From a bacterium (GTDB taxonomy: Bacteria; Vulcanimicrobiota; JABDET01): DNA of 37,499 nucleotides. Under the pieces are notes generated by a model. That model searched no databases and was not told the origin of the DNA. It worked only from the letters and a program-made list of their open reading frames with translations. Position numbers and translations under genes: made by a program. The stretch covers positions 1-37,499 of the forward strand of contig JAKAVV010000023.1 in the NCBI GenBank assembly GCA_021817145.1, in the 5' to 3' direction. Within the stretch, counting starts at the first letter, position 1; every line of letters starts with the position of its first letter. Positions 24,591 to 37,499 of the stretch are shown piece by piece.

Positions 24591-24834
24591 TCAATCCCCT
24601 GTATAATCAAATAATCCACCAAGGGGAAGACTCATGTCATTGATCAAAAAAGTTTCATTGGGAAATCCTGAATATGTTTTCCCTTTAATTGTAAATCCAT
24701 TTTCAAAATCGTTTACAATCTGAACAATGTCCTGGTCAAATACAGGAACCCCATAATGGTCTGTGTCAATTCCAGGATACCCTATCACATAATTGATTCA
24801 TGAAAACAATCACCCAGAAAAGCCTTCGACCCAT
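24591..24834 (-). pseudogene. Relic of a LAS-type secreted peptidase (cassette A)
   Basis: The leader and start codon are like those of the other cassettes (ATG at 24834, MGRRLFWVIVFMN), but after about 13 codons the gene jumps, with a frameshift, to the C-terminal domain: GYPGIDTDHYGVPVF and NDMSLPLGGLFD. These segments match the peptidases at 31564-32118 and 35246-37399. It then stops at 24593-24591 before the zinc-ligand His/Asp region. Signal peptide, Ig-like part and active site are thus deleted. Below the stop, another frame stays open for about 40 codons and runs into the terminator hairpin; no gene is credible there. Confidence 0.85.
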
Positions 24835-24972
24835 AAACACCATCCCCTTTCAAAAAGAAATGCCATTCCATGAGAGAAAAATTCCATCCGTGAAGTGATC
24901 TCATTCTATCACATTACCCCCCCATAAATGTCAAGTCCCTTTTTTAAGCTCAATAAAATGTTGAAATAGGCA
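24799..24972 (-). repeat. Cassette leader repeat A with promoter
   Basis: Nearly identical to 32083-32256 over its whole length, and to the inner parts of copies B and D. Candidate promoter: TTGACA (24934-24929), 20-base spacer containing seven consecutive G (complement of 24923-24917), TAGAAT (24908-24903). AAAGGGG precedes the ATG at 24834 by nine bases. The spacer is longer than the usual 17, so it may be weak or off as sequenced. Confidence 0.7.
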
Positions 24973-24983
24973 AGAAAACAATA

Positions 24984-25235
24984 TCAATAGATATCTTTTC
25001 TATGGGCAGCATGAAGGAGATAAATCAATTTTAAAGATGCATTTACTTCATAAGTCACGCGGTAATTTCCAATTCTAAGCCGCCAAGTACTTTCTTCCCC
25101 TGAAAGTTTTAAGGAATTTGCTGGAAAAGGATTGTCAGGCAGTGAGTCAACTTCCAACTTTATTCTTTTTTGAATATCAGAATAGAGTTTTCTTAAGTCA
25201 CGTCCAAAGGCTGGAGTATAAACCACTCTGAACAT
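24984..25235 (-). CDS. RelE/ParE-family toxin
   Basis: 83 residues. The family fold is indicated by LRKLYSDIQKRI, LKLSGEESTWRLRIGNYRVTYEV and the terminal LHAAHRKDIY. RelE-type toxins cleave mRNA on the ribosome, while ParE-type toxins poison gyrase; the sequence does not decide which. The ATG overlaps the antitoxin stop by one base (TAATG). The module is inserted between cassette A and the pilin relics of cassette B. Confidence 0.88.
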   Translation of the reverse strand: MFRVVYTPAFGRDLRKLYSDIQKRIKLEVDSLPDNPFPANSLKLSGEESTWRLRIGNYRVTYEVNASLKLIYLLHAAHRKDIY

Positions 25236-25405
25236 TACTTAAGTTTGAGGCTGTCCCAGAGTTCCTTTACAGGTTTTGCCAAATGTTTCTCTTTTTTTCT
25301 TTCTCTTGCAATTTGGGAAAGAAAAAAATCTTCCAGAAGTTCTTCAACTTGTTCTTTCCCAATCTTTTTCCTTAAAAAATCTAGTAAGGATTGTTGTGTT
25401 TTCAC
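25235..25405 (-). CDS. Small antitoxin partner of the RelE/ParE-like toxin
   Basis: 56 residues from GTG at 25405: starts MKTQQSLLDFLRKKIGKEQ, ends KELWDSLKLK. It is helical and highly charged, with an acidic then basic middle, as in toxin-neutralising partners. No clear DNA-binding domain is visible. The stop shares a base with the toxin start, which is the main evidence for the pairing. A TAGAAT box about 12 bases before the GTG may be its -10. Confidence 0.7.
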   Translation of the reverse strand: MKTQQSLLDFLRKKIGKEQVEELLEDFFLSQIARERKKEKHLAKPVKELWDSLKLK

Positions 25406-26117: not shown

Positions 26118-27137
26118 CTACTGAAAATTGGTTACACCCAGTTTGTATAAGATGAATTCAGCATTGGGTTTGAGCAAGTAATACGCATTATCAGTAACAT
26201 GTTTGCGGCTTGTTTGCGCATTTCCAGTGGAGGCTCCCTGCCCCTGCCCTGTTTGCCCTTGATGCTGGGCTTCCAGATCTAAAATAAAAGATTTCAGAAG
26301 ATTGATGGTTACTTGGGTTTCCCCTTCCTGCAGCTTTTTCTTCGCTTCATTTAATTTGGCATCCAGGCTGTTCGCCACCCCTGCATTGGTAATCCAGCCT
26401 AACTGGAATGCCTGCTCTTTTTCATTCAAGAGAAACTGCACCATGCAGGCAGGATCGCAGTTAAGAGGAAGGGCAGTGGGAGCAAGAGATTTAGTAAAAA
26501 ATTGCACAGCGCGGAGGGCTTGTGAATACGCTGCCAGGATTTTATTCATTTGCGGGATGGTCATGGTGAATTGATTGATATGAAAATATTTTCCAACACT
26601 TCCTTGTTCATCATCGGGATCAAATCGAAAAGTTCTAATTCCAACTATGCCGTGACTCTGAATCACAAAAGGTCCTGTGCTTGCGCCTGGATGTAAGGGA
26701 CCTCCTGGGCTTTCAGGACTACCGAAAGCTGCTGGTCCATCCCCTGTATAACCTCCATCCCATCCTGAAGGGGCTTCTGTAAAAGCAATAGGAACAACCT
26801 CTCCTTTCACTTCTTGATATGTATCCTGTTCAGACCCCTCACTTAAAACAACAGCAATATTATCCCTTAATCCCTGGGTACTTGGAAGTTGAGCCCCTTT
26901 GGGAAGATAAATATCAAACCAAACCCCACTAATGGATCCAATACTGTTCGGAAAATTAGTGATGATATACTGGTAAGTAAAGATTCCTGTGCTTGAATTA
27001 AATGCGACTTTTGGATTGATAGTCGCCCCTTTGATATAGGGCAAAGGCAGAGACTGAGCTTTCAGGACTGGGAATAAAAAAAGTCCAATACAAACAATCA
27101 TGGTAATTCTAACAAAAAGGCGCAGTTTTCGATTCAT
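26118..27137 (-). CDS. Secreted FIMAH-like-domain protein, copy 1
   Basis: 339 residues. Signal peptide (about 1-27, ending LKAQS) and a beta-rich N-terminal domain that shares the PKVAFN...GIFTYQY opening with the other copies and an APSGWD...HPGAS...GIVGIRTF pattern. From about 235 a helical FIMAH-like C-terminal domain follows (QAFQLGWITNAGVANSLDAK, FILDLEAQHQ, KHVTDNAYYLLKPNAEFIL). The linker inside the helical domain is Gly/Gln-rich here but Glu/Lys-rich in the other copies. It is the most divergent of four paralogues. AAAGGAGG lies before the ATG. It follows the peptidase-like gene by 21 bp. FIMAH-like is by recalled consensus; function unknown, perhaps surface binding. Confidence 0.75.
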   Translation of the reverse strand: MNRKLRLFVRITMIVCIGLFLFPVLKAQSLPLPYIKGATINPKVAFNSSTGIFTYQYIITNFPNSIGSISGVWFDIYLPKGAQLPSTQGLRDNIAVVLSEGSEQDTYQEVKGEVVPIAFTEAPSGWDGGYTGDGPAAFGSPESPGGPLHPGASTGPFVIQSHGIVGIRTFRFDPDDEQGSVGKYFHINQFTMTIPQMNKILAAYSQALRAVQFFTKSLAPTALPLNCDPACMVQFLLNEKEQAFQLGWITNAGVANSLDAKLNEAKKKLQEGETQVTINLLKSFILDLEAQHQGQTGQGQGASTGNAQTSRKHVTDNAYYLLKPNAEFILYKLGVTNFQ

Positions 27138-27158: not shown

Positions 27159-29201
27159 TTATGGCAGCAGCGCAATTTCAGGGGATTGAGAAGGAAACCA
27201 CTCATACTCTAAAACTCCTTCATTGTGGAATCCTGTATTCTCCAAAAAATGATATCTCCACATTTTGCTACGTAATATTTTGATCTCTTCCTCGGTTAAT
27301 CCCTGAATATCAATGCTGACACTGTTTCCAATTCGATGGAAAGAATGAGGGGGGATCCAGTTGCTGCAAAGATCAAATACACCTCCATCTGGAAGACTTA
27401 GATCCCCAATCTGGAGAGGAATTCCACCAGTTCTTTCATAAAATTTTTGGGCTGCTCGAGCAAGATCGCTGAGCATCTCAAAAATAGCATAGTGTCCAAC
27501 ATAACGATGTCCATTTGTTACTGTACACTGAAAAAGCGGATTGGTATAACTGGAAGTTGGTCCATCCCCTCTGATTACAAAATATTGAGAATAAGTCTGC
27601 AGAAGGAATGAATCTTTTTCTAAATTATCAAAAGGAAGATTGGCAAATTGCAAAAGAAAAGAAGAGGTGTTTCCTAAACTCCCAGGAACCTGGACATGAA
27701 ACTCTGGTTTATTTTCAACAGTGGCTCCAGAGGCAGTTACTGAAATTTTCACTTTTCCCCCAACTTGAGGAGGGCGATAAGCAATAGTAAAGCAGTTTCC
27801 AACGGCAACTTTTCCCTGACAGGCTGAAGGATTGTTCTCTCCGACAATAGTGAATGGAATCGTGCTCCCTAAAAAAGTATGAGAACTCTGAGGAGAGACA
27901 AAAGATCCATTGGGACGATCCGTGTCATAGAAATGCCCACCTGAATCTCTAACTGCTTCGGCTTTTAGAAAAACAGTTAATGGTTGCCCCACAGGAAGAT
28001 TATTCACGGAAACAAAGACCACTCCATATTGTGTAGGGACACTGGTCACTGTAAGATTGCCTGAAATTCCGTTTTCATGTAAGTAAATCAGATTGCGAGG
28101 ATGAATTATTTTTGGTGAAAGATCTACTTTAATTTGTTCCTGTCCGACTTGTACGGTCCCTCCAGCAGCCGCAAAAGTTCCTTCTGCTGTGTAACCATAC
28201 ATCTCATAAGTATAAGTCCCTGCAGAAGCCACAAGAGGACCGCTGCCAGAGGAAGCAGGCGCCACTGTATTCATTGTCCCATCCCATGCAATAGGTGAAA
28301 TTCCGCTCCCCACATCTGCAAAGATCACTTCTCCGCTCGAATCCAAAATGTCTAACTCCCACTGCACAGGGGTCGGTGTCCAGGGATTTATCCCTAATCC
28401 CACAAAAGACGGGGTAAACTCAAGCTTTTGTCCAAGCTGGGGAGAAAAAATGGTCGTATTCGATTGATTCCCTTGTGCATCCACCTGCTCAATCACAGGT
28501 TTCATTACCAATTCTCTCAACTCATAACTTTTCTCTTGCTGACTTTCAGAACTCCCAACTTGGATTGTTCCTGTCTCATACCACTGCCCATACCGTTCCG
28601 CCGCATTGTCTGCTGCCCCTGCTTTCAACTCCACTCCTGAAACTTCAAATTCCGCAGGACTTGGAACAAAAGAAGAATTCCCTAAACTGTCACTGATCTG
28701 AGCATAAATCCCTTTCGAGGTTTTCACTAAGACAACTGTAAAAGAAAAACTGGCATACTCCTCAAAAACCGATGTAGGAGTGTTGGTCGTATAATCATAT
28801 CCTGGACGATACTGTTTCAATGTCCAGGTCATCGGAGTAGAAAGGGTGGCTTCATTCGGAATGGTCCAAAATGTATTCACTCCATAATCCGTGGAGTAAG
28901 CGATATTGTTTGACATTCCTGTAAAATAATTAAGAAAAATCTCTCGCGTAAAAGGAGGCCCAGAGGGGCTGACAGGAGGGAAGTTTTGGGTAATAAAACT
29001 CTGAAAAGCGTTTTCGAGAAGAAAAGGGTCTTGCTGCAGGGCAGGGGAAGGGTAATCGGTTGGAGTAAGAGTGATGAGAACTTTGGGATAAGGTTGTGAA
29101 ATATAGGTGTATTGAGAAGTATAAACAGTTTGAGCAAAACAGAAAGGGGAGAAGCAGAATAAGTTCATCACAAGAATCACCCAGAAAAGCCTTCGACCCA
29201 T
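27159..29201 (-). CDS. Secreted Ig-like protein with a degenerate LAS peptidase domain
   Basis: 680 residues. Signal peptide ending FCFAQ; repeated beta-sandwich domains, including one with FlgD-like WDGTMN...GTYTYEMYGY near 300-350 and one with GGHFYDTDRPNGSF near 425-440 that is also in the 35246-37399 protein. The C-terminal 120 residues align with the LAS-type domain of its paralogues (SLPDGGVFD, then PHSFHRIGNSVSID). The usual HxxGxxxD is stretched to HxxGxxxxxD, and the final HWH is replaced by EYEW, so zinc ligands are missing. It is probably a pseudoenzyme that keeps the binding scaffold. The start at 29201 (second ATG) lies nine bases after AAAGGGG; an ATG nine bases earlier abuts the ribosome-binding site. 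Confidence 0.75.
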   Translation of the reverse strand: MGRRLFWVILVMNLFCFSPFCFAQTVYTSQYTYISQPYPKVLITLTPTDYPSPALQQDPFLLENAFQSFITQNFPPVSPSGPPFTREIFLNYFTGMSNNIAYSTDYGVNTFWTIPNEATLSTPMTWTLKQYRPGYDYTTNTPTSVFEEYASFSFTVVLVKTSKGIYAQISDSLGNSSFVPSPAEFEVSGVELKAGAADNAAERYGQWYETGTIQVGSSESQQEKSYELRELVMKPVIEQVDAQGNQSNTTIFSPQLGQKLEFTPSFVGLGINPWTPTPVQWELDILDSSGEVIFADVGSGISPIAWDGTMNTVAPASSGSGPLVASAGTYTYEMYGYTAEGTFAAAGGTVQVGQEQIKVDLSPKIIHPRNLIYLHENGISGNLTVTSVPTQYGVVFVSVNNLPVGQPLTVFLKAEAVRDSGGHFYDTDRPNGSFVSPQSSHTFLGSTIPFTIVGENNPSACQGKVAVGNCFTIAYRPPQVGGKVKISVTASGATVENKPEFHVQVPGSLGNTSSFLLQFANLPFDNLEKDSFLLQTYSQYFVIRGDGPTSSYTNPLFQCTVTNGHRYVGHYAIFEMLSDLARAAQKFYERTGGIPLQIGDLSLPDGGVFDLCSNWIPPHSFHRIGNSVSIDIQGLTEEEIKILRSKMWRYHFLENTGFHNEGVLEYEWFPSQSPEIALLP

Positions 29202-29301
29202 GAACACCATCCCCTTTCAAAAAGAAATGCCATTCCATGAGAGAAAAATTTCATCCGTGAAGTGTTAATTCTGAGGATACCACATTACCCCCCCATTTCA
29301 A
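29202..29301 (-). promoter_or_regulatory. Cassette leader B: promoter and 5' untranslated leader
   Basis: Same leader as copies A, C and D up to the G tract, but with a different -10 region. Candidate promoter: TTGAAA (29301-29296), 16-base spacer with seven G (complement of 29294-29288), TATCCT (29279-29274). This spacing is close to ideal, so copy B looks more active than A or C. The further stretch to the FIMAH-2 stop (29302-29418) holds only cassette flank. Confidence 0.65.
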
Positions 29302-29418: not shown

Positions 29419-30447
29419 CTATTTTTCATCCTCTTTTTGGTTCTGCTCTTCTTGTTCTTTCAGTTTTAATAAAATAAATTCGGCGTTGGGTTTAAGCAAA
29501 TAATAGGCGTTATCTGTTACATGTTTATGACTCTGCTCCTCCTCTTTTTCTTGTTCCTGTTTCTGCCCTTCTTCATTTTCCGGTTCTTCTTTTTGATGCT
29601 GGGCTTCCAGATCTAATACAAATGACCGCAGAATATTTCCCGCTGTTTGAAGATGCCCTTCTTTTATCTTTTTCTTCACTTCCTCCAGCTTTTTATCCAG
29701 ACTGTTCGCCACCCCTTTGTTAGTAATCCAGCCTAACTGGAATGCCTGCTCTTTTAAGTGAATTAACCGACTTAAAAGCTGTTCTAGAGTTAATCCTGTG
29801 GGAAGAGTATCAGGACCTGGAGTCTTAAGAATAATGCTGTCTCTTGGAGACCAATCGTCTGGAAGGCAGTGAAGATCCATCACACCTTCAGGAACCACTG
29901 GAATTGGGGCATTTCCTTGTGTCCAAGTGCGAACAATTCCAGGAAGCCCATTGTCCTTAAACCCAAAAGGACTTGCTGTATGACCTGGAGGAAGAAAATC
30001 TACGGGACCGTTCCAATTAACTGGAATTGAAGTAAATGCAAACCAAGTTTCACTATTGTTGGGGGCATTGTTGTTGTTGGGGGCATCACAGGCCTGGCAT
30101 GATTTCATATCAACTGCTGGGGAAGGGATTGGCGCCCAATCATGAGGAAACATAATGGAGGAATTAATAGGAACGGCTTTATCACTGATAAATTCAACTG
30201 TAAAATCAGACACTTTCTGCTGACTGTCTGGTTTGCTGTAAAGGGACCATTGATAAGTAAAATACCCGTGGGCTGGGTTTTTCCAATTAAAAGTTACTTT
30301 TGGGGTTAAAACAATGTCAATTTTATTGGCGGGCACAAAAATCACACCGGGTGGAAGAGGACACTTTGGCTGCGAAAATCCAACCCTGCAAAAAACTAGA
30401 AAAAGAATGCAGAACAGCAAACCTTTTAGATGTTTTTTTAAAATCAC
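29419..30447 (-). CDS. Secreted FIMAH-like-domain protein, copy 2
   Basis: About 342 residues from GTG at 30447 (eight bases after AGAGG; an earlier GTG at 30456 is possible). Signal peptide (LLFCILFLVFCRVGFSQ), beta-rich N-terminal domain (KVTFNWKNPAHGYFTYQW; PVNWNG; LPPGHTASPFGF; GLPGIVRTWTQG), then the helical FIMAH-like domain with a Glu/Lys/Gln-rich linker before KHVTDNAYYLLKPNAEFIL. It is almost the same as copy 4 over its full length, apart from clustered changes and an APNNNN duplication near residue 127. Directly upstream lies a relic of the peptidase 3' end, so this gene once belonged to a full cassette. It now depends on the copy-3 transcript. Confidence 0.78.
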   Translation of the reverse strand: MILKKHLKGLLFCILFLVFCRVGFSQPKCPLPPGVIFVPANKIDIVLTPKVTFNWKNPAHGYFTYQWSLYSKPDSQQKVSDFTVEFISDKAVPINSSIMFPHDWAPIPSPAVDMKSCQACDAPNNNNAPNNSETWFAFTSIPVNWNGPVDFLPPGHTASPFGFKDNGLPGIVRTWTQGNAPIPVVPEGVMDLHCLPDDWSPRDSIILKTPGPDTLPTGLTLEQLLSRLIHLKEQAFQLGWITNKGVANSLDKKLEEVKKKIKEGHLQTAGNILRSFVLDLEAQHQKEEPENEEGQKQEQEKEEEQSHKHVTDNAYYLLKPNAEFILLKLKEQEEQNQKEDEK

Positions 30448-30459
30448 TTTTCTCACCTC

Positions 30460-30612: not shown

Positions 30613-31551
30613 CTATTTTTCACCCTCTTTTTGGTTCTGCTCTTCTTGTTCTTTCAGTTTTAATAAAATAAATTCGGCATTGGGTTTGAGCAAATAATAG
30701 GCGTTATCCGTTACATGTTTATGGCTCTGCTCCTCCTCTTTTTCTTGTTCCTGTTTCTGCCCTTCTTCATTTTCCGGTTCTTCTTTTTGATGCTGGGCTT
30801 CCAGATCTAATACAAATGACCGCAGAATATTTCCCGCTGTTTGAAGATGCCCTTCTTTTATCTTTTTCTTCACTTCCTCCAGCTTTTTATCCAGACTGTT
30901 CGCCACCCCTTTGTTAGTAATCCAGCCTAATTGGAATGCCTGCTCTTTTAAGTGAATTAACCGCTCCACAAGCTGGAGATTCGTGATATTGACAGGGAAG
31001 AGATCGGATCCAACAGTTTTTTGAATTTCATTCATTTGAGGAGAATACCCTTGATCCGGACATTTAGCGGTTAAAGCAGGATTCACATCTGGGACAGAAG
31101 GAGGGAATGGAACATCTCCTTGACTCCAACTTCTCACAATCCCTGGAAGCCCAAGGGATTTTAAAAAGAGTCCTTTACGAGTCTCCCCAGGAAAAATGTC
31201 ATCACTTTCTCGATCTGCTGCCCAAGCCGCATCGTTAGCAGGCGCCATGGAATGCCGCCCCCCTCCAACACTAGGAGTGACAAATGAGAAATCCCATCCT
31301 CCAATTTTATAAGGGAGCGCGGGAAAATTGGGAACTTCTACATCAAAGCTCTGTACATTTTGGATACTGTCTGGTTTGCTGTAAAGGGTGTAGTTGTATT
31401 GAAAAGAAGCATGTTTGGGATTGAAAACTATTCTGGGTTTTATCACCACATCCACTTTATTGGCATCTTGCATGCACTGCTGCCCTTTTACCTGTTTAAA
31501 TCCCCATATCAAGAAGAATACAACTGTCCCAACAAAAATTTTTTTAAACAT
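30613..31551 (-). CDS. Secreted FIMAH-like-domain protein, copy 3
   Basis: About 312 residues from the ATG at 31551 (eight bases after AAGGGG). It has a signal peptide and a distinct N-terminal domain (FNPKHASFQYNYTLYSKPDS; RKGLFLKSLGLPGIVRSWSQG), but the C-terminal 115 residues, from LIHLKEQAFQLGWITNKG onward, are the same as in copies 2 and 4. Such an abrupt switch from different to identical sequence suggests gene conversion or recombination inside the gene. It follows the short peptidase gene by 12 bp and shares its transcript. Function unknown. Confidence 0.78.
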   Translation of the reverse strand: MFKKIFVGTVVFFLIWGFKQVKGQQCMQDANKVDVVIKPRIVFNPKHASFQYNYTLYSKPDSIQNVQSFDVEVPNFPALPYKIGGWDFSFVTPSVGGGRHSMAPANDAAWAADRESDDIFPGETRKGLFLKSLGLPGIVRSWSQGDVPFPPSVPDVNPALTAKCPDQGYSPQMNEIQKTVGSDLFPVNITNLQLVERLIHLKEQAFQLGWITNKGVANSLDKKLEEVKKKIKEGHLQTAGNILRSFVLDLEAQHQKEEPENEEGQKQEQEKEEEQSHKHVTDNAYYLLKPNAEFILLKLKEQEEQNQKEGEK

Positions 31552-31563
31552 TTTTCTCACCCC

Positions 31564-32118
31564 TTAAAATTGACCAGGTTTCATTTGAATGTGCCAGTGA
31601 TCCCCTTCCACATGAATATTTAAGTGTTGTTTTTTAATAAACTTTGCAAGTCTTTCAGCTTCAACAGAAGTAGAATTAAACCCCAGAGGGAAATACAGCA
31701 GATTGTAATCTACAGCTTCCCCTTCCTGATGGTCTAAATGAGGAGGTTCCCAATCCCCATTAATATCGAATACTCCTCCAAGAGGAAGACTCATATCATT
31801 GAGGAGAACAGTCTCACTTGGAAACACCGCTTTAAACTCTTGAGTAATTGCCACAATTTTATCCATAAACAGGGGGTTCCCATAATGATTGATGTCAATA
31901 TTGGGATACCCTTCCGTATAATCAGTGTTTGGATCGCATTCTTCCCAAGGAGAGGCAAATTGGGGAAGGCAGGGTCCTGGATGATCATAGGTTCCTCCTG
32001 TTTTGGTATAAAGAAGAGAGGGCTCTAAGCCAGGACTGCACGCCAGCGAAGGTTTTAGAAGTAGAGTAAAAAAGGAAATACCCATGAAAACAATCACCCA
32101 GAAAAGCCTTCGACCCAT
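31564..32118 (-). CDS. Secreted LAS-type metallopeptidase, short form
   Basis: 184 residues. A signal peptide (cleavage near SLA-CSPG) is followed directly by the peptidase domain without Ig-like modules. Conserved blocks are GYPNIDINHYGNPLF, LNDMSLPLGGVFD, PHLDHQEGEAVDY and GDHWHIQM. His130, Asp137 and His176 (counting from the ATG at 32118) fit the HxxxxxxD...HxH zinc ligands of LAS enzymes (M15/M74-like), which cut peptide bonds in peptidoglycan. The active-site set is complete. The closest family name cannot be fixed without a search; the substrate (own or foreign cell wall, or a protein) is unknown. It is co-transcribed with FIMAH copy 3. Confidence 0.75.
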   Translation of the reverse strand: MGRRLFWVIVFMGISFFTLLLKPSLACSPGLEPSLLYTKTGGTYDHPGPCLPQFASPWEECDPNTDYTEGYPNIDINHYGNPLFMDKIVAITQEFKAVFPSETVLLNDMSLPLGGVFDINGDWEPPHLDHQEGEAVDYNLLYFPLGFNSTSVEAERLAKFIKKQHLNIHVEGDHWHIQMKPGQF

Positions 32119-32256
32119 GAACACCATCCCCTTTCAAAAAGAAATGTCATTCCATGAGAGAAAAATTTCATCCGTGAAGTGATCTCATTCTATCACATTA
32201 CCCCCCCCATAAATGTCAAGTCCCTTTTTAAGCTCAATAAAATATTGGAATAGGCA
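32083..32256 (-). repeat. Cassette leader repeat C with promoter
   Basis: Near-identical to copy A. Candidate promoter: TTGACA (32219-32214), 21-base spacer holding eight G (complement of 32208-32201, one more than copy A), TAGAAT (32192-32187), and AAAGGGG before the ATG at 32118. Between 32257 and 32406 I see no gene; this is the divergent spacer toward hicB. Confidence 0.7.
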
Positions 32257-32406: not shown

Positions 32407-32442
32407 TTTTTTAACAGGATTCTGCTTCCATCTGTTAAAAAA
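32407..32442 (+). promoter_or_regulatory. Palindromic hicBA operator
   Basis: TTTTTTAACAG (32407-32417) and CTGTTAAAAAA (32432-32442) form an 11-bp perfect inverted repeat, ending 7 bases before the hicB ATG. It is conserved at the hicB relic (1382-1417), spacer length included, whereas upstream sequence is not. HicB or HicAB binding is the likely role. Confidence 0.65.
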
Positions 32443-32449
32443 TTTAATC

Positions 32450-32716
32450 ATGCGATTAGCGCTTACCGAATACATTGATGGATCACTGGCAAAAGCCATT
32501 TACGAGAAATTGGAAGATGGAACATATTTTGGCAAAATACCTCCCTGCAAAGGGGTGGTTGCTTTTGCAAAAAATTTAAAAAAATGTGAAGAAGATCTGC
32601 GTTCTGTCCTGGAAGATTGGATTATTTTAGGGCTAAAAATGGGACACCACCTTCCCATTATCAATGGAATTGATTTAAATCAAAGGCCAAGAAGTGGACA
32701 GATGGAAGCCGTGTAA
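32450..32716 (+). CDS. hicB: HicB-family antitoxin
   Basis: 88 residues. The ALTEYIDGSLAKAIYEKLEDGTYFGKIPPCKGVVAFAKN segment has the partial RNase-H-like fold of HicB with the typical alternating strands and GVVAFAKNLKKCEEDLRSVLEDW helix. HicB binds and blocks HicA and represses the operon. It comes before hicA and overlaps it by 23 bp. A truncated twin lies inverted at 1231-1374. Confidence 0.87.
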   Translation: MRLALTEYIDGSLAKAIYEKLEDGTYFGKIPPCKGVVAFAKNLKKCEEDLRSVLEDWIILGLKMGHHLPIINGIDLNQRPRSGQMEAV

Positions 32717-32924
32717 ACGGCGAGAATTCATTCGAAAACTTCGAAAGATTGGATTCAGTGGACCTTTTTCAGGAGCAAGGCACCAGTTTTTAATTTATGG
32801 AAGCCATCGCCTTGCGATTCCATCCAATCCTGAGTATTCTGTTAGTCAACTCAAAATGATGCTTCGGGAAGCCGAAATCATTCTTGGAACCTCTATTACC
32901 GCTCAGGAATGGGAGAGATTATAG
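32694..32924 (+). CDS. hicA: HicA-family mRNA interferase toxin
   Basis: 76 residues starting at GTG 32694 within the end of hicB. KRREFIRKLRKIGF, FSGARHQFLIYGSHRLAIPSNPEYS and SQLKMMLREAEI match the double-stranded RNA-binding-like fold of HicA; the His in ARHQF is the catalytic residue. The toxin cleaves mRNAs when free of HicB. It stands on the plus strand between two minus-strand cassettes, 30 bp from the end of the pilV-like gene. Confidence 0.87.
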   Translation: MDRWKPCKRREFIRKLRKIGFSGPFSGARHQFLIYGSHRLAIPSNPEYSVSQLKMMLREAEIILGTSITAQEWERL

Positions 32925-32954
32925 AAGCACTAAGTTTTGTGTGGATATCAGTCC

Positions 32955-33838: not shown

Positions 33839-34233
33839 GGTTTTATGATCTGCATACTTTCCGCTTTTTCGAAATCATGCAAATCCCAGAGAGGAACCTG
33901 ATAAGTGGTTTGGGCTGCAGTGAAAGAGCCTTGTGCAGTCATCCCAATCAAGATAAGAGTATTCCCCTGCCGCTTGATTTCAAGAATCCAATTTTTCTGT
34001 GGAAACAGATGCAGCTTCTGTGGTTTGCCATTCACCAGAGGTGGAATCCCATAAGCTTTGTAGTAGGCAAGACCAGATCGAGCAGTCTCTTCTGCCTGCA
34101 AGATTTCTTTTTCATGTTTGACGTACTGAATATTCTGCATAGTACTGGAAAGCAGAACAGCCCCTAAAATGGAAACAATCAAGAGAACAAAAAGAACGGT
34201 TACCAGGAGGAAGCCGCGCTGACTATTTTTCAT
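33835..34233 (-). CDS. PilX/GspK-like minor (pseudo)pilin
   Basis: 132 residues. Prepilin-like start QRG|FLLVTVLFVLLIVSILGAVLL with Thr instead of Glu at +5, as in PilX and GspK proteins, which sit at the tip of the fibre in type II systems. A helical segment (QYVKHEKEILQAEETARSGLAYYKA) and a short beta part follow. It overlaps the FIMAH gene by 11 bp, coupling it to that protein. Its first half is reused in the chimeric gene. Confidence 0.8.
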   Translation of the reverse strand: MKNSQRGFLLVTVLFVLLIVSILGAVLLSSTMQNIQYVKHEKEILQAEETARSGLAYYKAYGIPPLVNGKPQKLHLFPQKNWILEIKRQGNTLILIGMTAQGSFTAAQTTYQVPLWDLHDFEKAESMQIIKP

Positions 34234-35233
34234 CCTCTTTTTGGTTCTGCTCTTCTTGTTCTTTCAGTTTATATAAAATAAATTCGGCATTGGGTTTGAG
34301 CAAATAATAGGCGTTATCCGTTACATGTTTATGGCTCTGCTCCTCTTCTTTTTCTTGTTCCTGTTTCTGCCCTTCTTCATTTTCCGGTTCTTCTTTTTGA
34401 TGCTGGGCTTCCAGATCTAATACAAATGACCGCAAAATATTCCCAGCTGTTTGAAGATGCCCTTCTTTTATCTTTTTCTTCACTTCCTCCAGCTTTTTAT
34501 CCAGGCTGTTCGCCACCCCTTTGTTAGTAATCCAGCCTAACTGGAATGCCTGCTCTTTTAAGTGAATTAACCGACTTAAAAGCTGTTCTAGAGTTAATCC
34601 TGTGGGAAGAGTATCAGGACCTGGAGTCTTAAGAATAATGCTGTCTCTTGGAGACCAGCTGTCTGGAAGGCAGTGAAGATCCATCACACCTTCAGGAACC
34701 ACTGGAATTGGGGCATTTCCTTGTGTCCAGGTGCGAACAATTCCAGGAAGCCCATTGTCCTTAAACCCAAAAGGGCTTGCTGTATGACCTGGAGGAAGAA
34801 AATCTACGGGACCGTTCCAATTAACTGGAATTGAAGTAAATGCAAACCAAGTTTCATTATTGTTGGGGTCATTACAGGTCGGGCATAATTTCATATCAAC
34901 TGATGGGGAAGGGCTTGGCGCCCAATCATGAGGAAACATAATTGAGGAATTAATAGGAACGGCTTTATCACTGATAAATTCAACTGTAAAAAAAGCCACT
35001 TTCTGCTGACTGTCTGGTTTGCTGTAAAGGGACCATTGATAAGTAAAATACCCGTGGGCTGGGTTTTTCCAATTAAAAGTTACTTTTGGGGTTAAAACAA
35101 TATCAATTTTATTGGCGGGCACAAAGATCACACCGGGTGGAAGAGGACACTTTGGCTGCGAAAATCCAACCCTGCAAAAAACTAAAAAAAGAATGCAGAA
35201 CAGCAAACCTTTTAGATATTTTTTAAAAATCAC
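34223..35233 (-). CDS. Secreted FIMAH-like-domain protein, copy 4
   Basis: About 336 residues from GTG at 35233 (an earlier GTG at 35242 is possible). Signal peptide, beta-rich N-terminal domain and helical FIMAH-like C-terminus are nearly identical to copy 2. It lies just after the large peptidase gene and directly before the three pilin genes, in the one cassette that seems complete. The order suggests that the peptidase, this protein and the minor pilins form one surface complex, with this protein as an adhesin or stalk adaptor. That is inference from position. Confidence 0.78.
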   Translation of the reverse strand: MIFKKYLKGLLFCILFLVFCRVGFSQPKCPLPPGVIFVPANKIDIVLTPKVTFNWKNPAHGYFTYQWSLYSKPDSQQKVAFFTVEFISDKAVPINSSIMFPHDWAPSPSPSVDMKLCPTCNDPNNNETWFAFTSIPVNWNGPVDFLPPGHTASPFGFKDNGLPGIVRTWTQGNAPIPVVPEGVMDLHCLPDSWSPRDSIILKTPGPDTLPTGLTLEQLLSRLIHLKEQAFQLGWITNKGVANSLDKKLEEVKKKIKEGHLQTAGNILRSFVLDLEAQHQKEEPENEEGQKQEQEKEEEQSHKHVTDNAYYLLKPNAEFILYKLKEQEEQNQKEDEK

Positions 35234-35245
35234 TTTTCTCACCTC

Positions 35246-37399
35246 TCACAATTTTAGATAAGGGGACCATCCTGGAACAGGTGCCCATACATGCCAGTGC
35301 CGTGGAGCCCCATCACAAGATGGTCCTTCTTTATAAACATGCAAGTGAAATTTCTTAATAATATCATACAGTTCTTGCTGTGATGGGGCTGTGATTTCAC
35401 AGTGAAGGGGGAAGGGTTCCTGCTGGATATCAGCCGCTCTCCCTGTTCTGTGATCCCCATGAGGAGGATGCCAGTATTGACCATAAGGAGGACCAATATC
35501 AAATAATCCGCCTAATGGAAGGCTCATGTCATTCACATAAACTGTTTCAGTGTCTCCAACCCCAGGTAAAGAGACCCTTGTAGATGAATATCCTATATTT
35601 TTGTAAATATTAATAATTTCGTGGATTTTCTTCACAAAAGGGGGATATCCCCAATGATCCGTGTCAATCCCAGGATACCCAGGAGTATATTCCCCTTCAT
35701 ACAGTGGTCCTGGATGGACTGGGGTTCCCCCATCCTTTATGTAAAGAGAAGGATCATCCGGTAAAAGAATAAACCCAGGCACTTCCACATCAATCTCAGC
35801 AGACGGCTTCTTGATTGGGGAAGGTGGTGGATGGCAGGTAGAACAAATACCAGCTCCCACCTCTAGAATTTCATTTGTCAGAAAACCTGCTACTGAGAAT
35901 GAAGCCAGAGGCGACCTAATAGAGCCCAGTGGTTTTATGGGAGAAAAACTGAGTGAAGCAGGAGACCCAGTTTCAGCGCTGGAAGAGCAAAAGGGAACGG
36001 ATTGATGGGTGACTGTATCAATGACTTTTACCACAGTAAGGCGAATGGTTCCACTGACTGCAGAGGTCCTGTACCCGACAGTCAGGCTGCCGCTGTCATC
36101 ACTGACACAGGCTGCGCATGAAAAAGTGACTCCATCCCCTCTTTTAATTGTTTTAGAGAATGAGGTTCCACCAATCGTAAAGGTCCCCAGGGGCCATCCT
36201 AGTGAATGTGTATGTCCTCCACGGCGATTAAGATTTTTCTGGGTTGGAGGAGAAGCAAGCTTTGGCACAGATGCTCTAAAAACAAATTTTACAGGACGAC
36301 TCAAAGGAGTCCCATCACAGTTTGCGGCATGAATCGTAAAGGTTGTTTGATTCCTCTCTTCTACATCAATCGGCTTCCCTTGAAAACTGGGGGAAAGCTT
36401 AACTTTTGAAGGAGTTATTGTAACTTGAACCCCAGTTGGTCCGCCAATGGTGAGAGAGGCGACTCCGCTTGCGCCGACATTTTCTACAGGATCATTGGCT
36501 GTCAAATCAACATCATACTGTCCCGGCGGGAAAAATTTGTTCAAACTTCCAAAGGGAACACTTCCATCATAAGTCTCTGATAGAGATAAGCCGCTCCCCG
36601 AGATGGAGGCAGCAGGACCACCTGCTGCAGGCGCAATGGAAAGAGTCCAGTTCACTGAGGAAGGGGTCCATGCGCCCGGATCAGGAGGTAAAGGCAGTCC
36701 CACAATATTCGCTGTAATAAAGGTTTGCTGATTAGGGGGAGTAATTGTACTCGGCGAAACTGTAAAATTTTCAATCCCTAATGCTCGAATATAAAAAGGC
36801 TCAATGAAATTGGGACCACTCCCTCCAGATGTCCCAATGCTAATTTTCCAGTCGCCTGGGGTAGTAACAGCACTAGAAATAGAGGTCACATTTAAGGGGA
36901 AAAGAAGGGTAAAGGCGCCAACAGAACCACTGATGGTGGATGACAGATTCCATACCTGGGGCTGATAGACGGAAAGAATGGTATTTGGCGCCTGGCTCTT
37001 GGAATCTACTCCAATGGTGTATCCACAGGTACTTCCATCTGGGGAAGTTAGCTGAAGTGTCACAGTGGTATTTCCAGAAGTATTATCAAAGGATTGAATA
37101 GTCCATAAGGCTGTATCCCCTACATAAACAACAGGCGGTTCACTAGAAATATTTTGAAAGGTAACTCCAATTTGACGAACCCAGGTAAAATTTAAAGGTG
37201 GTAAAGCCGAAGAAGAAACTGAAATAGGAGGAGTTGGTCCAATCGCATAATTTTGTCCATTGATGCTGATAATGGGAGGAGACTCAAGCATGACATCACA
37301 AAGTGATACTTGGAAGATAGCTGAAGCTGGCACTGGGAAAACGAAGAGAAACAGAAAAACCAACACAAAAACTATCACCCAGAAAAACCTTCGACCCAT
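35246..37399 (-). CDS. Large secreted Ig-like/LAS-type metallopeptidase
   Basis: 717 residues. Signal peptide (MGRRFFWVIVFVLVFLF, cleavage near PASA-IF) and several beta-sandwich modules through about residue 530 (WTPSSVNWTLSI; PPGQYDVDLTAN; GGHTHSLGWPLGTF). A Pro-rich hinge comes next, then the peptidase domain from about 575 with GYPGIDTDHWGYPPF, NDMSLPLGGLFD, PHGDHRTGRAADI and RHWHVW. His650, Asp657 and His703 fit LAS zinc ligands. LAS enzymes (M15/M74-like) cleave peptidoglycan cross-links. The Ig-like part likely extends the enzyme from the surface. The second ATG (37399), nine bases after AAAGGGG, is the probable start. It is the first gene of the complete cassette, 12 bp before the chosen FIMAH start. 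Confidence 0.77.
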   Translation of the reverse strand: MGRRFFWVIVFVLVFLFLFVFPVPASAIFQVSLCDVMLESPPIISINGQNYAIGPTPPISVSSSALPPLNFTWVRQIGVTFQNISSEPPVVYVGDTALWTIQSFDNTSGNTTVTLQLTSPDGSTCGYTIGVDSKSQAPNTILSVYQPQVWNLSSTISGSVGAFTLLFPLNVTSISSAVTTPGDWKISIGTSGGSGPNFIEPFYIRALGIENFTVSPSTITPPNQQTFITANIVGLPLPPDPGAWTPSSVNWTLSIAPAAGGPAASISGSGLSLSETYDGSVPFGSLNKFFPPGQYDVDLTANDPVENVGASGVASLTIGGPTGVQVTITPSKVKLSPSFQGKPIDVEERNQTTFTIHAANCDGTPLSRPVKFVFRASVPKLASPPTQKNLNRRGGHTHSLGWPLGTFTIGGTSFSKTIKRGDGVTFSCAACVSDDSGSLTVGYRTSAVSGTIRLTVVKVIDTVTHQSVPFCSSSAETGSPASLSFSPIKPLGSIRSPLASFSVAGFLTNEILEVGAGICSTCHPPPSPIKKPSAEIDVEVPGFILLPDDPSLYIKDGGTPVHPGPLYEGEYTPGYPGIDTDHWGYPPFVKKIHEIINIYKNIGYSSTRVSLPGVGDTETVYVNDMSLPLGGLFDIGPPYGQYWHPPHGDHRTGRAADIQQEPFPLHCEITAPSQQELYDIIKKFHLHVYKEGPSCDGAPRHWHVWAPVPGWSPYLKL

Positions 37400-37499
37400 G
37401 AACACCATCCCCTTTCAAAAAGAAATGCCATTCCATGAGAGAAAAATTTCATCCGTGAAGTGTTAATTCTGAGGATACCACATTACCCCCACCCCCACC
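37400..37499 (-). promoter_or_regulatory. Cassette leader D: -10 region and 5' leader, cut by the window edge
   Basis: The leader matches copy B up to TATCCT (37477-37472). The G tract is split here into runs of five, five and at least two (complement of 37486-37499, separated by single T on the minus strand). The -35 box is beyond the window. Confidence 0.6.

Follow-up and report, generated by a model that had tools for sequence, protein, structure and literature searches.

A promoter-like leader with a poly-G tract of variable length is shared by secreted peptidase-like genes in an uncultured bacterium

In Neisseria meningitidis, one-base steps among 11, 10, and 9 G's change the expression of porA (PMC3639595). 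In the tpr genes of Treponema pallidum, transcription starts 4 nt downstream of a poly-G run, and reporter expression has been compared at 8 and 10 G's (PMC7864442). Also relevant are the extended -10 promoters, which have TGn just before the -10 box: these tolerate spacers of at least 18 bp and can make up for poor contacts at the -35 box (PMC2613000). Here we describe a family of poly-G leaders from an uncultured bacterium of the Vulcanimicrobiota. Most of the family lies within one contig of 37,499 nucleotides, which we refer to as the window.

On its minus strand, the window contains four copies of the leader (A to D). Copy A (24799-24934) has the order TTGACA-TTTAT-G7-TAATGTGA-TAGAAT, with TTGACA at 24934-24929, the G run at 24923-24917, TAGAAT at 24903-24908, and a spacer of 20 bp. 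Its -10 region with TGn, TGATAGAAT, ends at 24903, and is followed by the 5' UTR and a start codon (ATG) at 24834. Copy C (32083-32219) has the identical layout but with G8: TTGACA is at 32219-32214, the run is at 32208-32201, TAGAAT is at 32187-32192, the spacer is 21 bp, TGATAGAAT ends at 32187, and the ATG is at 32118. Copy B (29166-29301) has the order TTGAAA-T-G7-TAATGTGG-TATCCT, with TTGAAA at 29301-29296, the run at 29294-29288, TATCCT at 29274-29279, a spacer of just 16 bp, a -10 region with TGn (TGGTATCCT) that ends at 29274, and the ATG at 29201. For these three copies, the boxes, tract lengths, and spacers given in an earlier note on this DNA were correct to the base. Copy D (37364-37499) lies at the end of the contig and has the interrupted run that the earlier note described, GGTGGGGGTGGGGG, then TAATGTGGTATCCT (37472-37499); the -35 region lies beyond the contig and is unreadable, and the run should be read with caution. 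Its -10 region with TGn is TGGTATCCT and its ATG is at 37399. We looked for the missing upstream end of copy D in the other contigs and did not find it. A search of the whole assembly identified a fifth leader, copy E, on contig C9 (34623-34653), with the order TTGAAA-T-G10-TAATGTGG-TATCAT and a spacer of 19 bp.

Thus, A, B, C, and E have a homopolymer between recognizable -35 and -10 boxes. In all five leaders, TGn directly precedes the -10 box (TAGAAT, TATCCT, or TATCAT), the core GGGGGTAATGTG is unchanged, and the distance from the G run to the start codon (ATGGGTCGAAGG) is 82-86 nt. It seems reasonable to read the leader as a promoter, and from the boxes we infer a transcription start about 20 nt downstream of the run.

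Long G runs are not unusual in this DNA. The window has 3 runs of at least seven G or C, and dinucleotide shuffles predict 2.96, so we rejected the idea that the window has an excess of long runs. Across the genome, there are 47 distinct runs of G8 or longer, mostly inside open reading frames. What is not expected by chance is where the runs lie: each of the three in the window occupies the equivalent place in a homologous leader. The -35 box of copies A and C matches TTGACA at 6/6 positions. The chance of such a match at a spacing of 15-21 from a given position is about 0.003. For 5/6 or better it is about 0.04, so a match of that quality would not be very surprising. On the other hand, a simple consensus scan of the region found promoter-like sites at about the frequency expected by chance, and detected only copy B. 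We also searched the genome for TTGA-N2..8-G6-N6..14-TANNNT and found six matches, of which four are these leaders; the reversed control pattern had five matches. A wider regulon of poly-G promoters was rejected, as just two matches lie outside the leaders, the one that we inspected resembles coding sequence, and the count does not exceed the reversed control.

Each of the five leaders precedes one gene or gene remnant of a set that has a peptidase-like C-terminal domain in common. Behind leader A is a dead gene, of which a 25-amino-acid reading frame remains (24766-24843, minus strand). The genes behind leaders B to D are also on the minus strand. Gene B (27159-29201) encodes a secreted protein whose C-terminal domain is M74/M15-like but degenerate, gene C (31564-32118) encodes a secreted protein with an M74/M15-like peptidase domain (HLDHQEGEAVD ... 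HWH), and gene D (35246-37399) encodes a large secreted protein with a C-terminal M74/M15-like domain as in B and C. The final 150 residues of gene C are 93% identical to those of gene E (contig C9), and gene C appears to be a relative of E that has been shortened internally. The assignment to peptidases is based on weak similarity: hits to the M74 profile (PF03411) were below the cut-off (E = 0.009-0.015), and a low-confidence structure model had Sonic Hedgehog and MepA as its best folds (E = 0.04). The zinc-ligand motifs HxxxxxxD and HxH (HWH) are present in genes C, D, and E and in a gene of the sister species on contig C28. The predicted zinc ligands have been lost from gene B and from the gene on contig C14 (locus L024, 3314-4603), which suggests that these two members are non-catalytic versions of the domain.

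The peptidase-like genes are followed by genes for FIMAH-like proteins and, in places, by genes that resemble type IV prepilins (an assignment made partly by eye). The FIMAH-like genes are on the minus strand at 26118-27137 (downstream of gene B; just under the cut-off for Pfam FIMAH), 29419-30456, 30613-31560 (downstream of gene C), and 34223-35242 (downstream of gene D). The 3' 300 nt of the last three genes (29419-29718, 30613-30912, and 34223-34522) are 96-98% identical, and their 5' parts differ, so the locus has variable bodies that are flanked by shared leaders and shared tails. This arrangement is a possible substrate for cassette exchange. Among 98 relatives and a named genome collection, we found the FIMAH-like family only in this genus. 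There is also a broken FIMAH-like copy away from the cluster (locus L075, C30:70341-70990), with a disrupted frame and without a leader. In both species, the assembly breaks within the repeated cassettes (at 37499 in the window, at 37021 in C9, and on contigs C11, C14, and C28 of the sister species). A collapsed repeat probably connects the end of C9 to the D cassette.

Toxin-antitoxin modules adjoin leaders A and C (24984-25405 and 32450-32925) as well as the leaders of the sister species (L024 and L025). A gene for a ParE-type toxin (24984-25235, minus strand) is directly upstream of leader A, as it is upstream of leader L025. The other type has a HicB-like (UPF0150) gene and, by eye, a HicA-like reading frame. 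An inverted repeat (1190-1417 and 32407-32719; 97-100% complementary and 31 kb apart) covers the HicB-like gene and would be a second copy of that module, or what remains of one.

The conserved part of the leader is about 120 nt long and ends, beyond the 5' UTR, with the initial codons of the signal peptide (MGRRLFWVIV). Its upstream limit is generally the G tract; in the A/C pair the -35 box is included, with about 50 nt upstream of it, and in the B/E pair similarity begins over 120 nt upstream. Over 120 nt, the leader copies are 77-100% identical, and identity falls to the level of unrelated DNA (40-49%) inside the gene. Within one leader group, identity is 90-100%, while the gene bodies are unrelated. 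These patterns would fit a copied and homogenized module of promoter plus signal peptide. The same patterns could also arise if the leader served chiefly as an anchor of homology in cassette recombination and gene conversion, with the poly-G as a passenger and the genes perhaps read from elsewhere. The similar tails of the FIMAH-like genes are consistent with this, as are gene C and remnant A, which seem to derive from an E-like gene by internal deletion. Also, leaders B and E each follow a gene of the same orientation by about 100 nt, which would allow read-through. However, no cassette gene of the same orientation lies upstream of A or C, and the repeated unit in the sister species starts at TTGAC, which implies that the box itself is part of the preserved module. 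We consider the anchor explanation very unlikely. Each of the two species of the genus is represented by a single genome. Among 58 relatives, we found leader DNA in these two genomes only, and we found no match in viral contigs, nor in plasmids with the cassette protein as the query. The 5' UTR has no notable RNA structure (z-score of -0.07), and an Rfam scan of the window found only a tRNA.

To return to the copied module, the tract is G7 in A and B, G8 in C, G10 in E, and interrupted in D (these are paralogous copies in one genome). A and C differ by G7 versus G8 and by 5 substitutions, without any indel in the 120 nt downstream. Similarly, B and E differ by G7 versus G10 and by 13 substitutions, without any other indel over 240 nt. 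The sole other indel in the conserved flanks is in an A run upstream in A/C. Two of three indel events are in the tract, a part that makes up less than 4% of the alignment (nominal p = 0.004), and indels in the tract exceed those in the flanks. Also, just two of the 47 long G runs are G10: one is in copy E and the other is in a repeat that resembles the end of an insertion sequence.

Those repeats provide a control from the same genome. Repeats that resemble IS21 ends (a putative family with a G run and TGACATTTTCGCGTGG motifs; loci L105, L106, L107, L108, and L111 on contigs C3, C18, C11, C20, and C26) have G runs of 6 to 10 between copies. In two sets of copies, the lengths are 6/9/10 and 6/8/8. 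The leader tract is not more mutable than these comparable non-promoter runs, although higher mutability would be a supporting rather than a strictly defining feature of a phase-variable tract. Because the control runs vary as much, drift of the tract does not require a role in a promoter. Variation in homopolymers is expected, and the differences between paralogs are not evidence of a selected switch. Loss of mismatch repair as the cause was rejected, as the genome contains mutS.

The earlier note proposed that these leaders are a family of phase-variable promoters: slippage in the G tract would shift the register of the -35 and -10 boxes, so that different cells would express different secreted members of the family. 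The leader family, its promoter-like layout, and the variation in the tract from copy to copy all hold up, and copy E with its G10 adds to them. On/off switching by spacing, in the form proposed, is not supported. The near-identical pairs do differ mainly in the tract, the G10 of copy E is rare, the layout is like that of porA (PMC3639595, PMC2791445) and the multi-gene tpr family (PMC7864442), and B (16 bp) and E (19 bp) are one or two slips from a spacing of 17, so that one-base slips would cross the 16-18 optimum in these two copies. But this fails for A (20 bp) and C (21 bp), which are 3-4 bases from the optimum and would have a spacing of 17 bp only with a tract of four G's. A slip of one base would not turn these copies on, and copy A heads a dead gene. 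TGn is present in every leader, and because extended -10 promoters tolerate long spacers, a spacing of about 17 bp would be less necessary than the earlier note supposed. The equal variability of non-promoter G runs, the interruption in copy D, and the interrupted and invariant run in the sister species (see below) also argue against a switch. For a contingency locus in a mutS+ cell, runs of 7-8 are short. By analogy with the known systems, phase variation is a fair hypothesis, and we consider it doubtful here. Translational phase variation was rejected: no open reading frame of at least 60 amino acids spans the run in C or E, and the runs in the window are upstream of every candidate start codon.

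Instead, we tentatively favor a sigma70-type promoter, with a -35 box (TTGAC or TTGAA) and a TGn extended -10, that would drive each cassette gene. The homopolymer in the G-rich spacer would drift in length by replication slippage, and because of the extended -10 box, this would probably alter promoter strength gradedly at most, not on or off. We infer both that slippage produced the length differences and that these have only a small effect. Compared with phase variation, graded or neutral drift at a promoter with an extended -10 seems to fit somewhat better; jointly with the copied-module reading of the leader, it is plausible but not quite probable. The extended -10 may not count in this lineage, and if the -35 contact is essential, then spacing would matter after all.

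The sister species (G001) is the only congener. It has two leaders, both TTGACT-GGGGAGTGGGG-TAAAAG-TGGAAT and with an identical spacer of 17 bp to a weak -10-like box, TGGAAT. The run GGGGAGTGGGG is interrupted, non-slipping, and the same in both leaders, and TTGACT is kept directly before the G-rich spacer. Within the genus, then, conservation extends to the -35 box beside a G-rich stretch but not to the pure run that is prone to slippage. Nor is there clear conservation of the -10 box (TGGAAT lacks a TGn), which counts against the drifting extended -10 promoter.

Conservation of a G-rich core that is no longer a pure run raises another possibility: the stretch might be a binding site or a structural element, such as an operator for a repressor or activator or a MerR-type promoter (19-20 bp spacer), and its length would be irrelevant. 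The invariant core in the five copies fits this idea. Also, the spacers of E (19 bp) and A (20 bp) resemble those of MerR-type promoters; the mer spacer is 19 bp (PMC11049809). However, the spacer has no evident dyad, and no regulator gene was identified beside the leaders. MerR promoters are not known to tolerate spacer variation of 16-21, and the leaders have this whole range. We think that an operator or structural element is unlikely.

In our view, the shared promoter-like leader module with a G tract that drifts in length is real, as judged from the sequences. What it means depends on whether the tracts switch. If they do, this would be a multi-copy family of poly-G promoters in an uncultured lineage, while the mechanism is known mainly from host-associated pathogens, and it would suggest selection for diversity in a set of secreted, pilus-associated proteins. 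A stronger version is that a surface family of secreted, peptidase-like, pilin-linked proteins is expressed combinatorially, by slipping poly-G promoters for each cassette together with bodies made exchangeable by the shared leaders and tails. This is improbable, but if true, it would be phase variation plus variation of the antigenic type outside of the host-associated lineages where these are known, in an uncultured bacterium for which no host is known. If the tracts do not switch, then the lesson is one of caution: neutral drift is expected to make homopolymers differ in length between paralogs, even when they lie between a -35 and a -10 box, and such differences call for a control from the same genome.

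It is useful to compare the leaders to the known systems directly. The closest precedent is porA: in both, a G homopolymer lies between the -35 and -10 boxes of a gene for a secreted or surface protein, and the tract ranges are similar (9-11 G's in porA and 7-10 here). In porA, however, expression changes stepwise with each base (PMC3639595), whereas the leaders have spacers of 16-21 bp, an extended -10, and several paralogous genes. The tpr genes of T. pallidum (such as tprL) are also paralogous genes for secreted or outer-membrane proteins, each with a varying poly-G near the promoter (PMC7864442). There, the run is just upstream of the transcription start, whereas in the leaders the predicted -10 box lies downstream of the run. 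Finally, the leaders resemble extended -10 sigma70 promoters, as TGn precedes the -10 box in all five, and in this they differ from the leaders of the sister species.
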